Below, piece by piece: positions 20,221 to 32,242 of a DNA stretch of 32,242 nucleotides. The stretch comes from a virus. A program made the translations under genes and the position numbers. Within the stretch, counting starts at the first letter, position 1; each line of letters opens with the position of its first letter. Below the pieces are notes generated by a model that did not search any database, was not told the DNA's origin, and saw only the letters and a program-made list of their open reading frames with translations. The stretch spans positions 1 through 32,242 of IMG/VR virus record IMGVR_UViG_3300018080_000423, one strand, 5' to 3'.

Positions 20221-20589
20221 TTACCTATCTTCTCCCACCACGAAATTCGCCTCCTCCAGGTCTTTTCTCAAAGCCTCGCTGAATTTGCAGCGGGTAATTT
20301 CAAACGTAACCTCAACGCTGCCGTCATAGAAGTCCGGGCAGTGGCTGGTCTCGGTAACCCCCTGGTCGAAGTTCCGAAAAAACGTCTCAACGATAACCGG
20401 ATTCGTAATGCCGTGCATTTTGAAATGGATTTTGCCCCGCGTCTCCTGCTGTGCCGGTTGCTTTTTTGGCGCCTTGGCATCGTTCGCTTGCCGCAACTCC
20501 TTCAGCATTGCCGTAACGAAAGCCTTCCCTGCACCATAAGCGTAGGCCCCAATGACCACCAAAAAACAAATTCCAAGAACCTCAAGCAT
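20221..20589 (-). CDS. Small membrane-anchored protein between terminase and portal
   Basis: The 122-residue protein has an N-terminal hydrophobic helix, MLEVLGICFLVVIGAYAYGA, followed by a basic linker (LRQANDAKAPKKQPAQQET). A soluble beta-containing domain then has KIHFKMHGITNPVIVETFF and SVEVTFEITRCKFSEAL. It begins inside the last 8 nt of the terminase gene, so translational coupling is likely. No family is recognised. The anchor suggests action at the membrane, for example a superinfection-related or packaging-adjacent role, but that is a guess. Confidence 0.6.
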   Translation of the reverse strand: MLEVLGICFLVVIGAYAYGAGKAFVTAMLKELRQANDAKAPKKQPAQQETRGKIHFKMHGITNPVIVETFFRNFDQGVTETSHCPDFYDGSVEVTFEITRCKFSEALRKDLEEANFVVGEDR

Positions 20590-22057
20590 ATTGACCCAGT
20601 TCCAATAACTTCGGCTCTACATACTCGCCTAACATGCGATACGCCCCGGAGGTCCAATCGACCTGGTCATCGTGCGAATCGCCTTGACCCGTAAATTCTA
20701 CCAATTCGTCTATGTAGTTGTCAACCCCCTTGCCCCGGACGATGAAAAACTTACCCGCCTCGCATCGAGCTACCCAGGGCAACGCCCTTGTCAGCTTGTC
20801 GGTGTCCTCATTGTAGGCGAACAGCGGTATTCGAGACGCTTCCGCCGTTGCTATCAAGTCCTGAAAAAAGCCTTTTTGTGTGCCGCACGTCTCGATTCCA
20901 ACGGGTATTTTCTCGGATTTTCCTACGTTGATAATCGCTTTTCGAGCTTCCGGCCACTCCATACGCTCACGGATGAAGCTGCGAACGTAGATATTGCCAA
21001 ACTGATCTTGAGCCATTTTTCCGCTCGCCGTATAGTCGGCACTCGTCTTTTTCGATACGGCCAGATCGTAATACCGCACCCAAAACAGACTGCCCGGCAC
21101 TTGGTCCGGCTCAATCACCTTCAGCCATTCCCGCTTGATAACCGCTCCGCCTGCAGGAGTAGGCCGCTGCTGATACAGGCCCGCCCACTCGTACTTTGTC
21201 AAGGTCGCCCGAATCCGCCGCAACTCCTTCAAGTCCACCTTGCCCGGCCATAGCGGATCTCCCGGCTTTCGCGGGTCTTTCGGGTGTGTGTACTCGGTTT
21301 GCTCGAACACCCCCGGAAAGACGATGATTTTCCATTTATCCGCCTCCGGGTCGTCTTGCATTTTCTTGATAGCCCAACCCGCCAAATCATCTGTGTGCCA
21401 TCGCGTCATAAGGAGCAGAATCCGACCGCCTTTTTCCATACGGGTACGGAAAACGCTCGTGTACCACTCGATGCACGTCTGCCTCACCGTCTCGCTCTCG
21501 GCGTCTTTGCGGTCTTTTACCGGGTCGTCAATAATCCCGTAATGACCGCCCCGGCCCGTCAAGCCGCCGCCGATGCCCGCCGCTCGATAGTGCCCCTTGT
21601 AGTGCATTACCGTAAATTCCTCCGCCCGCCTGATCGCCGTTTCGTCCTGCCGGTTGCCCCTTGTACTCAAAGCCGTCTCGGGGAAAATCTGCCGGTACTC
21701 CGGGCTAATCATAATCCTCTGGCAATCCCGACTCATGGCGTTTATGAGGTCGCCGGAATAGGACGCGGCGATGATATGTGCATCCGGGTTTTGCCCGAAA
21801 ATATACGCAGGCAAGTGTCTCGAACAAATCTCCGATTTCCCGTGTCTTGGCGGCATGGACAGCATGAGATTGTACGATTCTGCGGACTTTAGCCACTGGT
21901 CGATCTCATCACAGACCAGCACGTGATGCCAATTAGTCTCATACCCCCCCGGAAAAGTCGCCTGTATAAACGGCAGCAGCCCCCGGCGTGCCAATTCGAT
22001 CTCAGCAGCTTTTTCTCTCGCCCTCAATTCGGCCTTAATCGCCTCAACCGTTATCAT
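20582..22057 (-). CDS. terL: Terminase large subunit
   Basis: The 491-residue protein has all the parts of a packaging motor. Walker A is PPRHGKSE (69-76), Walker B is YGIIDDP (173-179) and the coupling motif is MTRW (217-220). The C-terminal nuclease has YYDLAVSKKTSADYT (329-343), with its first acidic residue at D331, a central E389 in GIETCG and SHDDQVD (461-467). A TerL of about 490 residues is in the usual range. The start overlaps the small subunit gene by 14 nt. It cuts and pumps the genome into proheads using ATP. Confidence 0.95.
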   Translation of the reverse strand: MITVEAIKAELRAREKAAEIELARRGLLPFIQATFPGGYETNWHHVLVCDEIDQWLKSAESYNLMLSMPPRHGKSEICSRHLPAYIFGQNPDAHIIAASYSGDLINAMSRDCQRIMISPEYRQIFPETALSTRGNRQDETAIRRAEEFTVMHYKGHYRAAGIGGGLTGRGGHYGIIDDPVKDRKDAESETVRQTCIEWYTSVFRTRMEKGGRILLLMTRWHTDDLAGWAIKKMQDDPEADKWKIIVFPGVFEQTEYTHPKDPRKPGDPLWPGKVDLKELRRIRATLTKYEWAGLYQQRPTPAGGAVIKREWLKVIEPDQVPGSLFWVRYYDLAVSKKTSADYTASGKMAQDQFGNIYVRSFIRERMEWPEARKAIINVGKSEKIPVGIETCGTQKGFFQDLIATAEASRIPLFAYNEDTDKLTRALPWVARCEAGKFFIVRGKGVDNYIDELVEFTGQGDSHDDQVDWTSGAYRMLGEYVEPKLLELGQYA

Positions 22058-22511
22058 TGGCCGGTAACGCTCCCCGTATCTCTTTTAGCATCGCCATAAG
22101 CTCCTCAGTAGTCTTATCTCTCAGGCTCTCGCCCTCTGCCGTGATCTCTGTATGGCTGTCCGGCCTGCCCATGAGCAGTAATTCAAGCCTTATCAGCTTC
22201 TCCAAGGCGGCCACAGGAGCCTTTGTCTTGACGCCCTTTTTCTGCTTATTGATTTCTTCCAGCACGCGGCCTTTTGCCCAACGAACTATTTGCAAGTTCT
22301 TCGCAAGCTCCGTAGCCGCCTTAGAATCCGCCTTTGCCTCTGCTTTCTTGCGGATTTCCTTCAGCCGCTCATCCCATTTTTCACGCAGCCGGTACTTTCG
22401 CACCGTAGTATGCGAAACCCCGCATTTCCTGGAAACATGGCGGACAGTCTGCTTCTCCTGAAAAGCACGAAACAGAGCGGCCCTTTTTTTTGTCGATAAC
22501 GGCTCAGCCAT
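22044..22511 (-). CDS. terS: Terminase small subunit
   Basis: The start is the ATG at 22509-22511, giving 155 residues, MAEPLSTKKRAALFRAFQEK. It begins with a helix-turn-helix region (VRHVSRKCGVSHTTVRKYRL, about 24-43), the DNA recognition part of many small terminases. A lysine-rich helical middle and an oligomerisation-like segment (APVAALEKLIRLELLLMGRP) follow. An upstream in-frame extension would overlap the previous gene. It lies directly before terL with a 14-nt overlap, and it should select the packaging site. Confidence 0.82.
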   Translation of the reverse strand: MAEPLSTKKRAALFRAFQEKQTVRHVSRKCGVSHTTVRKYRLREKWDERLKEIRKKAEAKADSKAATELAKNLQIVRWAKGRVLEEINKQKKGVKTKAPVAALEKLIRLELLLMGRPDSHTEITAEGESLRDKTTEELMAMLKEIRGALPANDNG

Positions 22512-22518
22512 TGCTATC

Positions 22519-22854
22519 TCAAACGTACTTAAACTCAATTCTGTTGATCTTGGCAAGCGGCCCCACGTTGTAGTGCCTGCATATCATTACTGCAAACTCA
22601 AACGGCGTCATTTTCGGGAAACCTTCACGCCGACAATCATCCTCGGTGATGTCTCGTACACGTTCGGCTCTTGTCGAAACCACTTCAATTACACACAACC
22701 TTTTGAGCTTTTCACCTTTTTTCAGCCCTCTCGCCTTCTCGACCGCCTGTATTCTATCGCCGGGCCTCAGAAACCACCAGCCAAGCCGCCGCGTTACAGT
22801 CTTTGAACGATTCTTGATTTGCTCTGTCGTCATTGAAAAAGACATATTTCTCAT
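22519..22854 (-). CDS. ASCH-domain protein
   Basis: The start is the ATG at 22852-22854; an adjacent GTG at 22855-22857 is also possible, and the stop of the preceding gene overlaps as TGATG. The 111-residue product has MSFSMTTEQIKNRSKTVTRR, then WWFLRPGDRIQAVEKARGLKKG and VRDITEDDCRREGFPKMTPF. The T-x-T-R-R, L-x-P-G-D, and I-T-x-x-D-x-x-x-E-G-F blocks are typical of the ASCH beta-barrel, an RNA- or modified-nucleotide-binding fold. It directly follows the ABC/GNAT fusion gene and leads to the terminase genes. Specific substrate unknown. Confidence 0.85.
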   Translation of the reverse strand: MRNMSFSMTTEQIKNRSKTVTRRLGWWFLRPGDRIQAVEKARGLKKGEKLKRLCVIEVVSTRAERVRDITEDDCRREGFPKMTPFEFAVMICRHYNVGPLAKINRIEFKYV

Positions 22855-23930
22855 CACTGCCCCCTGTACGCATACGTTGCAAGAATAACATTAGACCTCC
22901 CGGCTAAACCGGGTGTATTGCGACTTTTAGTGTGTTCTCGCGTGCCTCTCTTATAAAATTGCGTGCATTTCCAATTGGAGTCACGTTTCAACCCGAGAAT
23001 CATCGCCGGATGACTGCTCGTCAGAGTCAACTTTAGCTCAAGCGACCTGTAATAATCGCCAAGCATCTGCAAAAATGCCCTACCGATGCCGATACCCTGA
23101 AAATCCGGCAGCGTCACTATCCTATGCACTCGGCGAAACCCTTTGTGGCCCATAGATGGCAATATCGCAGCAAAGGCCACCATTCTATCGCCCCAAAAAC
23201 AACCGTATGTTTTCGCGCATCTGTTCAACGCACTGCTCAAATAGTGGTGTTTCTTAAAAGCTGCCCACGTTTTACGCTCAACGCTTGCCATTTCCAACTC
23301 GATTTTGGGTCGCCGAAGCCGCCTCCTTCTGAAGGTCAAATCCTTCATGTCCAACACCCAATCAGGCTGAAGCCATTGTAGTATATCGTAATGACATGAG
23401 ATAGCGACCATTTTGGCGTCTCGCATACGCACAGTCTTTGCCATTGCCGAAGACCCCACCTTTGCCACCGTTCTGTCAACCACGCTGGTAAACTCGTCTA
23501 TGACAAACAATTTCTGCCCTTCATACTCAAGAATCGCTCTCGCTATCTCGGCCCGAAACTTCTCCCCGTTGCTCAGCACGTCATAAGGCTTACACCATGA
23601 AGGCGGGCTTGAAAAGCCAACCATTGTCAACATGCCAACAATATCACTCGTTTTCGCACCCTTCGGGAAGCCGTCCACGATAGCTTTGTTGCTCGGCCAC
23701 GTAAATCGATCGTGAACATATCCCTCAAAAACCTCATTAGCTATCACGGTCTTACCTGAACCGCTCGGCCCCACAATTAGGCCAATAGCCCACGGCTTGC
23801 TATCGTATGGAAAGTCAAATTTCCAAGTATGACGAGTCTTTTCGGCTGCTTCTACATCGTATATCGAGGCAACTTGGCTAACCCGAAAACTTCTCGGCAC
23901 GTCACTTTTTACTGCAATCTCTACGCTCAT
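22854..23930 (-). CDS. ABC-type ATPase fused to GNAT acetyltransferase-like domain
   Basis: The start is the ATG at 23928-23930 (ATGA overlap with the ParB-like gene). The 358-residue product has Walker A GPSGSGKT (54-61), an ABC signature LSNGEK (119-124), Walker B LFVIDE (141-146) and an H-loop His in ISCHYD (about 180). Residues from about 215 form a GNAT-like domain with KHHYLSSALNRCAKTYG and DFQGIGIGRAFL, where QGIGIG (278-283) is the acyl-CoA pyrophosphate loop. No membrane segments are present, so it is not a transporter. The architecture and ParB/ASCH neighbours suggest nucleic acid modification, possibly Mom-like. That function is inferred. Confidence 0.85.
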   Translation of the reverse strand: MSVEIAVKSDVPRSFRVSQVASIYDVEAAEKTRHTWKFDFPYDSKPWAIGLIVGPSGSGKTVIANEVFEGYVHDRFTWPSNKAIVDGFPKGAKTSDIVGMLTMVGFSSPPSWCKPYDVLSNGEKFRAEIARAILEYEGQKLFVIDEFTSVVDRTVAKVGSSAMAKTVRMRDAKMVAISCHYDILQWLQPDWVLDMKDLTFRRRRLRRPKIELEMASVERKTWAAFKKHHYLSSALNRCAKTYGCFWGDRMVAFAAILPSMGHKGFRRVHRIVTLPDFQGIGIGRAFLQMLGDYYRSLELKLTLTSSHPAMILGLKRDSNWKCTQFYKRGTREHTKSRNTPGLAGRSNVILATYAYRGQ

Positions 23931-24526
23931 ATCGGAGCGTCCAAAGTCATTACCCGACATTCATAGCCCTTTTTCTTCAGCAGATTAAAAACTTCCTCTT
24001 GCTGTGACTCATCTTTGCAGTCACAAACTACCGTATATTGAGATTCAATTTGAGCTTCGGCCCCGCCCTCATCTTCGTCCGGCTCCGGCTCCCCCAACTC
24101 AAACGCAACCATATCAAAGTCCGGCAGATCTAGCGTCTCAAGGTCGATGTCGGGCAAATCTTCCAAGAAGGCCCGCAACCCTTCCGCGTCAACTTTGCCG
24201 TATTGCGAGACGTAGCCGAGAAGCCGATCTTTCGCCTCATCCAAATTCGCCGCCTCAATATCACACACCGGCACTTTGCCGTCCGGCAGCACCCAACCCT
24301 CAGCAATCATCGTTTCCAGCACTCGCTTCCTCTGCGTACCGTCAAGAATCTTGTTCTCCCATACGAAAAACGGTGCATCGAAGCCTTTGGTTTCTATCCG
24401 GGTCTTGAGCTTTGCCGCGTTCTTGACACTGAGGCTTTTCAGGTCGCCCTGTACGCTTTCCAGTTTTTTAAGGCTCTCAAGCCTCGCCCCGGCACACTTG
24501 ATCTGAATTACGTTCTCTTGCTTCAT
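23927..24526 (-). CDS. ParB/Srx-like domain protein
   Basis: The start is the ATG at 24524-24526 with AAGGA five bases before it, giving 199 residues. The N-terminal part has LKSLSVKNAAKLKTRIETKGFD followed by PFFVWENKILDGTQRKRVLE. The D-G-T-Q-R block (62-66) corresponds to the G-x-x-R nucleotide-binding box of the ParB/sulfiredoxin fold. A C-terminal piece, YTVVCDCKDESQQEEVFNLL, resembles a segment often found after ParB-linked DNA methylases, but no methylase domain is present here. It is coupled to the ABC/GNAT gene by ATGA. A CTPase or nuclease activity is possible but not shown. Confidence 0.8.
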   Translation of the reverse strand: MKQENVIQIKCAGARLESLKKLESVQGDLKSLSVKNAAKLKTRIETKGFDAPFFVWENKILDGTQRKRVLETMIAEGWVLPDGKVPVCDIEAANLDEAKDRLLGYVSQYGKVDAEGLRAFLEDLPDIDLETLDLPDFDMVAFELGEPEPDEDEGGAEAQIESQYTVVCDCKDESQQEEVFNLLKKKGYECRVMTLDAPI

Positions 24527-29104: not shown

Positions 29105-29836
29105 TCATTGCGGCCTCCTTGCCTTCGCAACCGTAACCGTTGGAACAAAAAACCGATCTTCGCACTCCGCCCTCACCCGTTCCCTGTCCATATTGTCGCC
29201 GCTCATGTGCAACAGGTGTATCTCCCGGCACGCTGAGAGGTCGCAAAACTCATCGAGATACCGGAAGCAGTTGTCTTTTTCCATGTGACTGGTCAGCAGC
29301 CGCTTCGCAACCGCTTCGTGTATATCACCGCTCTCAACCCTGCGTTTGAGCACTTCGGCCTCATAACTGCACTCTATAGCCACGATGTTGAAGCGATACT
29401 TAAACCGCTGAGATAAGTGGCTCGTATCGGTAGCGAAGAGCAAAAACTCTTTCGTGGCTTTCTCGCGCACCACAAACCCAAGAGGCTCCGCCGCGTCGTG
29501 ATTCACGTCAAAGCACAGAACCTCAAAGCTCGGCAAGCGGATAAGCGTCGTGTTATCGACAACGGTTGTCTTACGGCTGTTCGTTCTAATACAGTCGATA
29601 GTCCCTTGACTCGCGTAAACCTCTATACCCGCTTTCGTGACATTCCAAGTAGCCTTGCTATGGTCTTGATGCTCATGGCTGAGCAAGCACCCCTCTATAC
29701 CTTCGAGGCGATAATCCATAGCATCCAACAGCTTAGCCCACGTAACTCCGCACTCGATCATCAGCCGCTTGCCATTACGGGCCTTGACCGTGTAAAGGTT
29801 CCCGCTGCTGCCGGAATATAACTGTTCAAATCTCAA
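29105..29836 (-). CDS. MBL-fold metal hydrolase (YycJ-like)
   Basis: The start is taken as the TTG at 29834-29836, which overlaps the recT stop as TTGA. It gives a protein beginning (M)RFEQLYSGSSGNLYTV, matching family N-termini; a TTG four codons earlier is possible. The 243-residue protein has the MBL signature SHEHQDHS (53-60), an upstream S-G-S-S-G-N loop and later FATDTSH and LLHMSGDN metal-binding regions. YycJ-like enzymes act on nucleic acid or phosphodiester substrates. Between recT and the replication gene a nuclease role in recombination or repair is plausible. Confidence 0.82.
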   Translation of the reverse strand: MRFEQLYSGSSGNLYTVKARNGKRLMIECGVTWAKLLDAMDYRLEGIEGCLLSHEHQDHSKATWNVTKAGIEVYASQGTIDCIRTNSRKTTVVDNTTLIRLPSFEVLCFDVNHDAAEPLGFVVREKATKEFLLFATDTSHLSQRFKYRFNIVAIECSYEAEVLKRRVESGDIHEAVAKRLLTSHMEKDNCFRYLDEFCDLSACREIHLLHMSGDNMDRERVRAECEDRFFVPTVTVAKARRPQ

Positions 29837-30696
29837 TCGTTCATCCAATCGTCACAAGCTGGCTGAGCCAGCTTGTCTTTTTCGGCTTGCACTTTCGCCG
29901 CCGTCTCGCGGTCCTGATCTTCAAATTCCGCTTCGATAAACTCCCCGCCCGTTTCACCCTCGATAGCCTTCTGAGCGGACACCTGTGCTTCGACAAACGT
30001 CTCTTTCTCGTCAATAGCAGCGGCCCGCGAGAAATCTTCCAAGATTGATTTCGGGAGAAACTTTGCAAGCTGCCGGATCGCGGTCTTTTTCGCCATAGCC
30101 TCATAATGATTCTCCCACGCCGGGCTATCTGGTGCTTTCGACAGACCCCGGAACCGCTCAACTTCATCTTCCCGCAGCACGATAGTCTGCGTCCCGAGTC
30201 CGTCGATTTCAGCACAAGCATAGACCGCAACCATGGCGCCCGTTGGAGGCTTGTACGAAAACGGATGCTCCACAACGAACCGGCCATCGACGCGGGTCAC
30301 GGTCACGCTGTCCTTCTCGCTGTCGTATATGCAGTGAGCAGATATACCCTTGACCTTGCCGCTACGGTACGCAAGCTCGATAAGCCCCATGTAGCCGATT
30401 TGAAATTGAGCCTCCATCATGCCCATGCCCTTGTCCTTGTACGGGACAAGGTAGGCAAGTCCACGCGGGTCAATATCGAGGTCAAGACTTGCTGATATAC
30501 TCGCCGCCTTGATTATGCTCGGTATGCTGCACGCTTGGAGCGTCCGATTCTGGCTGATAGTCGTATAGACCATCTTGGCAAACCGTTTAGCCGCGTCTTC
30601 GGCGTGCTTGCCCTGAGCGTTGGGCAAATTATCGCGGAACATAGCCAACGCCCCCGGTCCCATCAACTGCTTTTTGATTGTCGCCAAGTTAGACAT
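29833..30696 (-). CDS. recT: RecT-family single-strand annealing protein
   Basis: The start is the ATG at 30694-30696, with a full AAGGAGGTG ribosome site four bases upstream, giving 287 residues. RecT hallmarks are clear: KMVYTTISQNRTLQACSIPS, IIKAASISASLDLDIDPRG, AYLVPYKDKGMG, QIGYMGLIELAYRSGKVKGI and MAKKTAIRQLAKFLPKS. The C-terminus (from 225) is acidic and disordered. RecT anneals complementary strands during phage recombination or replication. The preceding SMC-like ATPase gene, which overlaps by 8 nt, would be the nuclease-linked partner in this system. Confidence 0.93.
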   Translation of the reverse strand: MSNLATIKKQLMGPGALAMFRDNLPNAQGKHAEDAAKRFAKMVYTTISQNRTLQACSIPSIIKAASISASLDLDIDPRGLAYLVPYKDKGMGMMEAQFQIGYMGLIELAYRSGKVKGISAHCIYDSEKDSVTVTRVDGRFVVEHPFSYKPPTGAMVAVYACAEIDGLGTQTIVLREDEVERFRGLSKAPDSPAWENHYEAMAKKTAIRQLAKFLPKSILEDFSRAAAIDEKETFVEAQVSAQKAIEGETGGEFIEAEFEDQDRETAAKVQAEKDKLAQPACDDWMND

Positions 30697-32242
30697 TTGC
30701 CACCTCCTTAATCTCCACGTCAAGTTCGGTAACGCCCTGAACCGCCCACAATTCGATAGTCTGGCTATTTGCTGCTTCAAGCGACATCGTGACCGATTCG
30801 GCGTGATCTACAAACAGCGGCACGCTCAGCCCGTAATGCTCGGACAGCGTATTGACAATATCGACGCCGCAAATAATCTTCTGTCCCGTGCTCATATCCC
30901 TGTATGGCACACCATGATAGGTAGCTTCGCAGCACTCATCAAATCCGCCGTTTAACAGCCGCTCAAACAGCTTCCACTCCGTCACTCGAAATCTGCCGTT
31001 CACGGCCTGTTCAATCAGACCGCTTTCGGTCGCCTTGTACTGGTCGATGTCCGCCAACTGCCCCTCGATCTCGGCCAACTTCTGAGCAAGGTCTTTTTCT
31101 TTCTGCTCAAGCTCTTTGATTCGGGCCGCGTCCTGCTTCATCCGGTCACTCTGCCCCAACGCCGCATTGATTTCAGATAGCTCGCTGTTCTTGGCAATCC
31201 GGTCATTCTCAAGGGCGTCAAGCCGCTCCGATACCGGCTCTCCGATTTCCACCTCAAGGTCCTCGATACTCTTAGAGAGTCTTTTCCACTTCGGATCTTT
31301 GTCCGGTGGCGTGCTCGGACAGGCCGCTATCTGCTTCTCGATATTGGCAAGCTCGGCGTCTTTGGCCTTATCCGCTTCGATAAGAGCATCTTCCGCCGCC
31401 GCAAGCGCCTCCCCGGCCTCTTTCAATTCGGCCTCAAACTTCTCAATCGTTTTCTTCTGTGCAACCACGCTGCATTTGAGGTCTTTCCCCCGTGCCGATA
31501 TTTCATCCAGTTTCGCCTTCCGTTGCTGCTGCATTTCTGCAATCTTCTCAGCAGGTAAACCCTGCCCGCAAGCGTAGCAGGTCGCCGGGTCTTTGTCGGC
31601 CTCGACCGCCTTGAATTGCGCACGCACTTCCTGTAGCTCTTTCGTCGAGCCAGCCAGCCGTGCATTAGCAGACTTCAGCACCGAATCCGCTGCACCGTAA
31701 GCCGTCTGAGCCGTAGTCACCGCCGCTTTCTTCTCAGCAACCCCAGTTTCCAACGCCGCCTTCTGATCGAGCAGTCCGACAATGGCACTCGTATCGTTCT
31801 TCAACTCGACTTCGCGTTCCGACCGTCGGGCTTTCAGGTTATTCAGCCGCTCGATTTTGACCTGCCTAATGTTTTCCTCGGCGAGTATGGATTTACGGCC
31901 CTTCTCAATCTCCTTGATTTCCATATCGAGATTATGCCGCTTAACTTCGAGGTCTTTCGTATCGCCCCCTGCGTAACTGTCAAGCCCACGCTGCAATTCG
32001 TCAATTCTCGGATTGATTTCGTCACGCTCTTTGACATACCGCTTCTTCTGCTCGACAAGCACCTTTTTGTACTCGTCCATTGACCGGCCATTTAGAGCCG
32101 CAAGCAATTCCTCGAAGCCCCCCGGCGTTCCGATGTCGCCTGCAATGTCCAGCAGCACCCCCCGGCGTTCCGTCCAGTGCATCTTCTCGTTGAAATAGCT
32201 CAAATCGGTCAGCAACTTAAATGTGTCCTCGTCAATAAGCTC
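30689..32242 (-). CDS. SMC/Rad50-like AAA ATPase, N-terminus beyond window
   Basis: The frame is open through the window end, so the start and Walker A lie outside. The visible 517 residues have long coiled coils flanking a zinc-hook-like C-Y-A-C (codons at 31568-31579, PATCYACGQGLPAEK). The C-terminal lobe has DMSTGQKIICGVDIVN as an ABC signature and VPLFVDHAESV as Walker B. The D-loop follows, and the protein closes with a strand-rich tail. Such proteins partner with RecT or an exonuclease in phage recombination. The translated end overlaps recT by 8 nt. Confidence 0.85.
   Translation of the reverse strand, partial: ELIDEDTFKLLTDLSYFNEKMHWTERRGVLLDIAGDIGTPGGFEELLAALNGRSMDEYKKVLVEQKKRYVKERDEINPRIDELQRGLDSYAGGDTKDLEVKRHNLDMEIKEIEKGRKSILAEENIRQVKIERLNNLKARRSEREVELKNDTSAIVGLLDQKAALETGVAEKKAAVTTAQTAYGAADSVLKSANARLAGSTKELQEVRAQFKAVEADKDPATCYACGQGLPAEKIAEMQQQRKAKLDEISARGKDLKCSVVAQKKTIEKFEAELKEAGEALAAAEDALIEADKAKDAELANIEKQIAACPSTPPDKDPKWKRLSKSIEDLEVEIGEPVSERLDALENDRIAKNSELSEINAALGQSDRMKQDAARIKELEQKEKDLAQKLAEIEGQLADIDQYKATESGLIEQAVNGRFRVTEWKLFERLLNGGFDECCEATYHGVPYRDMSTGQKIICGVDIVNTLSEHYGLSVPLFVDHAESVTMSLEAANSQTIELWAVQGVTELDVEIKEVANV

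Follow-up and report, generated by a model that had tools for sequence, protein, structure and literature searches.

An ABC-ATPase/GNAT fusion coupled to a ParB-like protein: a candidate phage system for DNA base acylation

Introduction

In the viral record IMGVR_UViG_3300018080_000423, analysed over its whole length of 32,242 bases and referred to here as the window, a protein that joins an ABC-type ATPase to an acetyltransferase-like (GNAT) domain is encoded between a gene for a ParB-like protein and the packaging genes. The question raised by this locus is what such a fusion does at this place in a phage genome. An initial annotation had read three coupled genes, for the ParB-like protein, the fusion and an ASCH-domain protein, as a unit suited to genome modification before packaging or to defence evasion. 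It had pointed to a GNAT-fold precedent, Mom of phage Mu (PF25680), which forms N6-carbamoylmethyl-adenine.

A GNAT domain coupled with an ABC ATPase has been predicted to acylate a DNA base, a modification not further characterised, with pT24 and QAX98348.1 named as examples; this prediction is attributed to Iyer and colleagues (2013) and restated in a survey of jumbo phages (PMC7824862). Both examples belong to the family described here, and QAX98348.1, the product of a gene of Aeromonas phage AsFcp_2 (L014:3983-5161), is 36% identical to the window protein over its full length. The window protein thus has the domain pair, family and predicted reaction of the system outlined in the survey, and the core idea of base acylation is prior art. 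In the part of the survey that treats this system, ParB, the tail peptide, exchange with Mom, PanD with CoA-transferase, and formyltransferase are not mentioned. In the literature, no experimental test of any family member was found, and the paper on phages LE3 and LE4 is silent on phage DNA restriction or modification.

The analysis presented here favours, with reasonable though incomplete confidence, the reading that the ParB-like protein and the fusion (ABC-GNAT) together form a phage system for acylating DNA bases, resembling Mom with an ATPase added. Gene anatomy, intact motifs, family membership, gene linkage and the exchange with Mom were established computationally.

Organisation of the locus

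The genes run along the minus strand in the order ParB/Srx-fold protein, ABC-GNAT, ASCH-like protein, terminase small subunit (TerS), terminase large subunit (TerL), a small membrane-type ORF and portal. The ParB gene (23927..24526) has its best start at ATG 24526, preceded by the SD-like AAGGACGG, with GTG 24547 as an alternative, and stops at 23927. The ABC-GNAT reading frame is open from ATG 23960, although the later ATG at 23930 lies close to the start of the family alignment and overlaps the ParB stop by 4 nt (ATGA); the gene (22854..23930) stops at 22854. There, the ATG of the ASCH-like gene (22519..22854, about 111–112 amino acids) overlaps this stop, GTG 22857 being another possible start. 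Only 7 nt separate its end at 22519 from TerS (22044..22511, ATG at 22511), an HTH protein matched by Pfam Phage_terminase at 8.6e-4 and by PHROG terS families, which is followed by TerL (20582..22057; Pfam Terminase_6N 1.6e-15, phrog_38 1e-99). The three-gene module of the initial annotation is thus real and intact, with genes that overlap or touch and lead into the packaging genes. As a description of the window, "three coupled genes" holds; as a conserved unit it reduces to ParB and ABC-GNAT.

The third gene is the loose member. The window protein itself has no match to Pfam ASCH (PF04266), but it belongs to a viral family in whose alignment 17 of 69 sequences do match (best 1.7e-4). A scan with this alignment gave 80 viral loci, of which only three have an ABC-GNAT gene within 3 kb, and ASCH-like genes occur in only a few of 178 ABC-GNAT loci. 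One locus (L087) repeats the arrangement and coupling of the window, and the same place is taken in two Streptococcus phages, MismyG and Javan523, by a distinct protein that is clearly ASCH. Membership of ASCH in the core module, as annotated, was rejected on these counts; the protein is an accessory and an occasional partner, possibly, as a guess, a reader of the modified base.

Two other regions of the window, both on the minus strand, were noted. Between 2780 and 7586, glycosyltransferases (PF00534, PF13524), a PIG-L deacetylase and sugar-type ORFs lie amid tail genes and perhaps serve virion decoration. At 29105-29848, next to RecT (29833-30780), a metallo-beta-lactamase-fold protein shows a weak match to the Anti-Pycsar protein Apyc1 (6e-5, under the cut-off).

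The ABC-GNAT protein

The fusion matches phrog_11143, a PHROG family of unknown function, with 333 bits (3e-99) over residues 14–346, and its full-length AlphaFold2 model is confidently folded (pLDDT 92.3, pTM 0.87). Family features were counted in alignment A5, which contains 133 sequences, the window protein and 132 relatives. The amino-terminal ABC-type ATPase domain (23349..23930, minus strand, as are all features of this protein) is matched by Pfam ABC_tran at 5e-5 in the window protein and in 133 of 133 members, and its PDB matches are MalK, FtsE and other nucleotide-binding domains. It contains the Walker A motif GPSGSGKT (23748..23771; pattern in 132 members), the ABC signature LSNGE (23562..23576; pattern LSxGE/Q in all 133) and the Walker B motif with its catalytic glutamate, LFVIDE (23493..23510), in which D155 and E156 are invariant. 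With Walker A and B, H-loop, signature and a MalK/FtsE-like fold, the domain resembles the ATPases of ABC transporters and of the SMC-RecF group; unlike these, it carries a GNAT domain and has no nearby membrane subunit, and SMC_N matches are weak and confined to 30 of 133 members. No transmembrane partner was found among the coupled genes.

The GNAT domain follows (22857..23345). Pfam Acetyltransf_1 matches it at 2.1e-5 and is found in 121 of 133 members; modelled alone with AlphaFold2 it reaches a pLDDT of 89.3. The family motif HHYLS (23235..23249) contains the invariant residues H239 and Y240, HY being present in all 133 members; in the alignment with Mom, HYS stands at this position. The motif A, QGIGIG (23082..23099), forms the acyl-CoA pyrophosphate loop, and its pattern is kept in 127 members. 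Invariant throughout the alignment are D155, E156, H190, H239, Y240 and R280. The ATPase and CoA-binding motifs of the window protein are intact, and Pfam, AlphaFold2 and Foldseek agree on the annotated architecture of an ABC ATPase without membrane part fused to an acetyltransferase-like domain.

Compared with the PDB, the GNAT half finds generic GNATs as its best matches (1y9k and RimI), with TM-scores of about 0.55–0.65, which places it in no defined family of protein or small-molecule acetyltransferases. Its matches among viral models are family members (LE4, 9184) and a number of long GNAT proteins labelled restriction-endonuclease-like. As an alternative to base acylation, the GNAT domain might serve host takeover by acylating a host protein (RNA polymerase, a nucleoid protein or a ribosomal protein), as proposed for phage Rac-like GNATs; the ABC domain would then act as a conformational switch. 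RimI is a protein acetyltransferase, and the jumbo-phage survey (PMC7824862) describes phage GNATs with host proteins as targets. The TM-scores are nevertheless generic, and such a role would leave unexplained the ParB coupling, the exchange with Mom, the CoA-transferase, PanD and formyltransferase genes and the place before the terminase, all presented below; it is considered unlikely, though it fares best among the alternatives to base acylation.

Family and distribution

Searches with tblastn found ABC-GNAT in 63 phage records, with hosts that include Gordonia, Pseudomonas, Streptococcus, Aeromonas, Porphyromonas and Leptospira. Confirmed relatives comprise at least 596 candidate stretches from viral contigs and 451 from genomes; used singly as query, the window protein had no match in the viral contigs, but an alignment query did retrieve relatives. 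The locus sets analysed are the best 80 by similarity for each query and hence not random, ORFs in contigs were called mechanically, and several contigs are near-duplicates. The best 80 genome relatives of the window protein (L100-L179) are mostly from Planctomycetota and often adjoin terminase-sized genes. They may be prophages, which weakly suggests that the window phage infects planctomycetes; the inference is weak because the cassette moves.

The ParB protein and its carboxy-terminal tail

The annotated ParB/Srx fold of the first gene product agrees with its PHROG matches (phrog_498 7e-9, phrog_723 0.0012) and with homologues annotated as ParB in phages Jace, LE4, Pmp13 and MismyG. The Jace homologue matches Pfam ParB_N at 1.4e-5, slightly under the curated cut-off. 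The G-x-x-R-type box is present in the window protein as DGTQR, and a strict regular expression for it finds 40 of 141 ParB-type upstream genes. Of the 80 viral and 80 genome loci ranked closest to the window, 69 and 60, respectively, have a ParB gene immediately upstream of ABC-GNAT.

A strongly conserved part of ParB is its carboxy-terminal tail, YTVVCDCKDESQQEEVFNLLKKKGYECRVMTL (23948..24043, minus strand), which probably folds as beta-alpha-beta and is matched by phrog_28816 on residues 169–200. It is conserved in the 141 ParB-type upstream genes, with the pattern xVxVECxxExxQxxLxxRLxxEGxxCRxL over the last 35 or so residues. In the clade of Pseudomonas phage Komp_PAO1_1, the tail occurs alone in 36 of 79 loci, as a peptide of at most 75 amino acids just ahead of ABC-GNAT; in four cultured or sequenced phages the stand-alone peptide has 40–49 residues. 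Survival of the tail in loci without ParB indicates that it is probably the part that binds ABC-GNAT: the tail is likely the dock for the enzyme, and the ParB domain is probably optional for the cassette. In Porphyromonas phages, the stand-alone peptide is annotated as 'acr candidate'.

Exchange with Mom

When phages were searched with Mu Mom, a match was found at the right genome end of Porphyromonas phage 012a. In Porphyromonas phage 011a, the same slot contains a 42-residue ORF, an ABC-GNAT gene and a formyltransferase gene. Identity between the two genomes is 87% across 3.7 kb of the tail genes and 81% in the final 91 bp, and the stretch between these regions shows no similarity; phage 013a, which also carries Mom, is 92% identical to 011a across 3.1 kb of tail genes and 80% identical over the same last 91 bp. 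The Porphyromonas Mom genes are matched by the Pfam Mom family at 5.9e-56 and by Mu Mom at 1e-19. ABC-GNAT and Mom cassettes have therefore been exchanged in one phage genome background, that of the Porphyromonas relatives and not of the window phage itself. Judged from these sequences, the exchange is the strongest sign found that both cassettes do the same kind of job, and it makes DNA the likely substrate, with the caveat that other cargo genes can occupy this slot at the genome end of transposable phages. A second exchange was sought among Pseudomonas phages, but the collection contained no close relative of Komp_PAO1_1, and none of 310 ABC-GNAT loci had Mom within the stretch examined.

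The likeness to Mom of phage Mu extends to a GNAT fold, a late phage gene, an HY motif at the aligned place and a small coupled upstream gene, which is Com in Mu and the tail peptide or ParB for ABC-GNAT. Com is a zinc finger, whereas a zinc motif is missing from the tail peptide, and Mom lacks an ABC domain. The annotated comparison with Mom did not extend to sequence membership. Pfam Mom (PF25680) has no match in the window protein at E <= 1, where true Moms score 159–253 bits, and a profile comparison (hhalign) of the GNAT domain with Mom is weak and not significant, with a probability of 1.7%, P = 0.03 and one of 60 column shuffles scoring as high, although the HY motifs are aligned. On sequence, the GNAT domain cannot be shown to be a Mom, and filing it as a member was rejected. 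Aeromonas phage PX29 (NC_023688) carries a Mom-like gene (36309-36881) and an ABC-GNAT gene (53335-54300) far apart in one genome, so the two need not be equivalent. In Microbacterium phage Appa (L181:2469-3621), a ParB gene overlaps a Mom gene; this ParB was checked for the ABC-GNAT-type tail and has a CPSC-containing tail instead.

ParB and the exchange with Mom also bear on the idea that RNA is acylated, by an N4-acetylcytidine-like tRNA modification following the logic of TmcA/NAT10, with ASCH as reader or eraser. Like the fusion, TmcA/NAT10 combines an ATPase and a GNAT domain in one protein and acylates a nucleobase amine, and E. coli YqfB is an ASCH-fold amidohydrolase that acts on acetylcytidine. 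The GNAT similarity is marginal, comprising weak matches to Pfam GNAT_acetyltr_2 (0.03) and, in PDB sequences, to an RNA cytidine acetyltransferase (0.6). The TmcA ATPase is of the helicase type and not ABC, domain order and size differ, ASCH is rarely linked to ABC-GNAT, and ParB and the Mom slot point to DNA; RNA acylation is accordingly given little weight.

Acyl-donor and formyltransferase genes

Acylation of DNA bases would require an acyl donor, and candidate genes for its synthesis follow ABC-GNAT in some relatives. In Gordonia phage Jace, the next genes encode aspartate decarboxylase PanD (PF02261, 2e-33) and a family-III CoA-transferase (PF02515, 2.2e-8), and the same pair follows with short overlaps in three further loci (L033, L094, L373). 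Across the relatives, PanD is matched at about 1e-30 and the CoA-transferase at 4e-10 to 8e-5. The self-cleavage motif YxGS is intact in the PanD sequences examined, and the CoA-transferases, at about 230 amino acids, are shorter than the 366-position Pfam model. A reverse search for this CoA-transferase found 37 viral contigs, some of them of putative phage origin, with ABC-GNAT within about 2 kb in 35, of which 29 also contain PanD; in the remaining two, the contig edge truncates the locus. At 90% identity the 37 contigs form 25 clusters, so this is not one phage copied many times. Among 50,697 phage records, the CoA-transferase was found only in two Jace entries. The short CoA-transferase thus seems exclusive to the ABC-GNAT setting.

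The recurrent operon of ParB, ABC-GNAT, PanD and short CoA-transferase was observed in L503-L538, L033, L094, L373 and L003, and in L508 and L515 two ABC-GNAT genes, 72% identical, flank the PanD/CoA-transferase pair. When phage PanD genes unlinked to ABC-GNAT were sought, matches beyond Jace and Achromobacter phage 2-1 were judged to resemble host DNA in lysate records; in phage 2-1, PanD adjoins a DNA polymerase gene (L502:3989-4384) and no ABC-GNAT accompanies it. The near-constant association of the CoA-transferase with ABC-GNAT, together with PanD, predicts a dedicated beta-alanyl-CoA donor. In the simplest reading, PanD would convert aspartate to beta-alanine, the CoA-transferase would form beta-alanyl-CoA, and the GNAT domain would use it. 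No literature report was found that ties these operons to base modification, and they look new, the window being a further member of a known, uncharacterised family.

A formyltransferase gene (PF00551, to 2e-19) follows ABC-GNAT in 55 of 79 loci of the Komp_PAO1_1 clade and in 0 of 231 elsewhere. Loci of this type include L006, L012, L013, L017, L018 and L423-L501, many with the stand-alone tail peptide in place of ParB. In a tree of 308 ABC-GNAT sequences, all 50 formyltransferase loci group within a single clade with 67 members (support 1.0); likewise, all six PanD/CoA-transferase loci group within a clade of 27 (support 0.93): the donor genes track the ABC-GNAT tree. Neither PanD with CoA-transferase nor formyltransferase is present in the window; host acyl-CoA is therefore the expected, and probable, source there, while relatives would make their own donor and the formyltransferase may act as a follow-up enzyme.

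Position before the terminase

The gene after ABC-GNAT is often TerS; among large ORFs, TerL comes first downstream in at least 32 of 57 viral loci. In phage P335, where ABC and GNAT are split, the cassette stands at the start of the late region, flanked by the late activator ALT and TerS. Phages TP901-1 and ul36 are 94% identical to P335 across the terminase region and have no cassette, so packaging does not need it; other occupants of the slot in P335-type phages were looked for and not found, TP901-1 and ul36 simply being without one. In transposable and T4-like phages, ABC-GNAT is located away from the terminase. An accessory role in packaging or DNA processing, in which ATPase and ParB would prepare ends or concatemers for the terminase under regulation by the GNAT domain, would suit the frequent place of the pair directly before TerS and TerL. 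It is improbable given near-identical terminase genes without the cassette in TP901-1 and ul36 and the separate location in other phages. From its genomic setting, the cassette appears to be cargo positioned for late expression and not a packaging part.

Least probable of all is a toxin-antitoxin or superinfection-exclusion unit with a GNAT toxin held by ParB, for although GNAT toxins exist, the ParB tail resembles a neutralising peptide and many loci are in prophage-like contigs, the partner is a ParB/Srx protein with no RHH or HTH antitoxin beside the GNAT and no matching Pfam family, PADLOC has no match except weak ATPase-type mad3/mad8, ABC-GNAT also occurs in lytic T4-like phages, and donor-synthesis genes would make no sense for a toxin.

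Proposed mechanism and implications

In base acylation by the ParB/ABC-GNAT pair, ATP binding would close the ABC domains as a dimer on phage DNA, and, with a CoA thioester as donor, the GNAT domain would place an acyl or aminoacyl group on the exocyclic amine of a base, N6 of adenine or N4 of cytosine being the likeliest targets. ParB would dock through its conserved tail and may have a part in site selection or loading. Modification would take place late in infection, ahead of packaging, so that the packaged genome would resist host nucleases. In this scheme we infer the DNA substrate, the base, the acyl group, the timing and the roles of ParB and ASCH. Of the annotated proposal of genome modification before packaging, the part concerning the ParB/ABC-GNAT pair is kept, in line with the prediction restated in the portion of the survey compared here (PMC7824862), the Mom slot exchange and the donor genes; ASCH is dropped as a member.

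The ABC-GNAT family is common and its activity has been predicted in print, but no product was found in the literature. Candidate acyl groups are suggested by the operons with PanD/CoA-transferase and with formyltransferase, and substrate and acyl group are testable by mass spectrometry on the cultured phages Jace, P335, LE4 and Komp_PAO1_1. There is perhaps an even chance that ABC-coupled GNATs are, more generally, widespread phage base writers, exchangeable with Mom, in which the accessory genes of each clade set the acyl group: beta-alanyl, formylated, or derived from host acyl-CoA. If this is true, their products would make up a hitherto undescribed family of base modifications. A beta-alanyl base, derived from a common metabolite, would give DNA a positively charged modification, with a bearing on restriction evasion.
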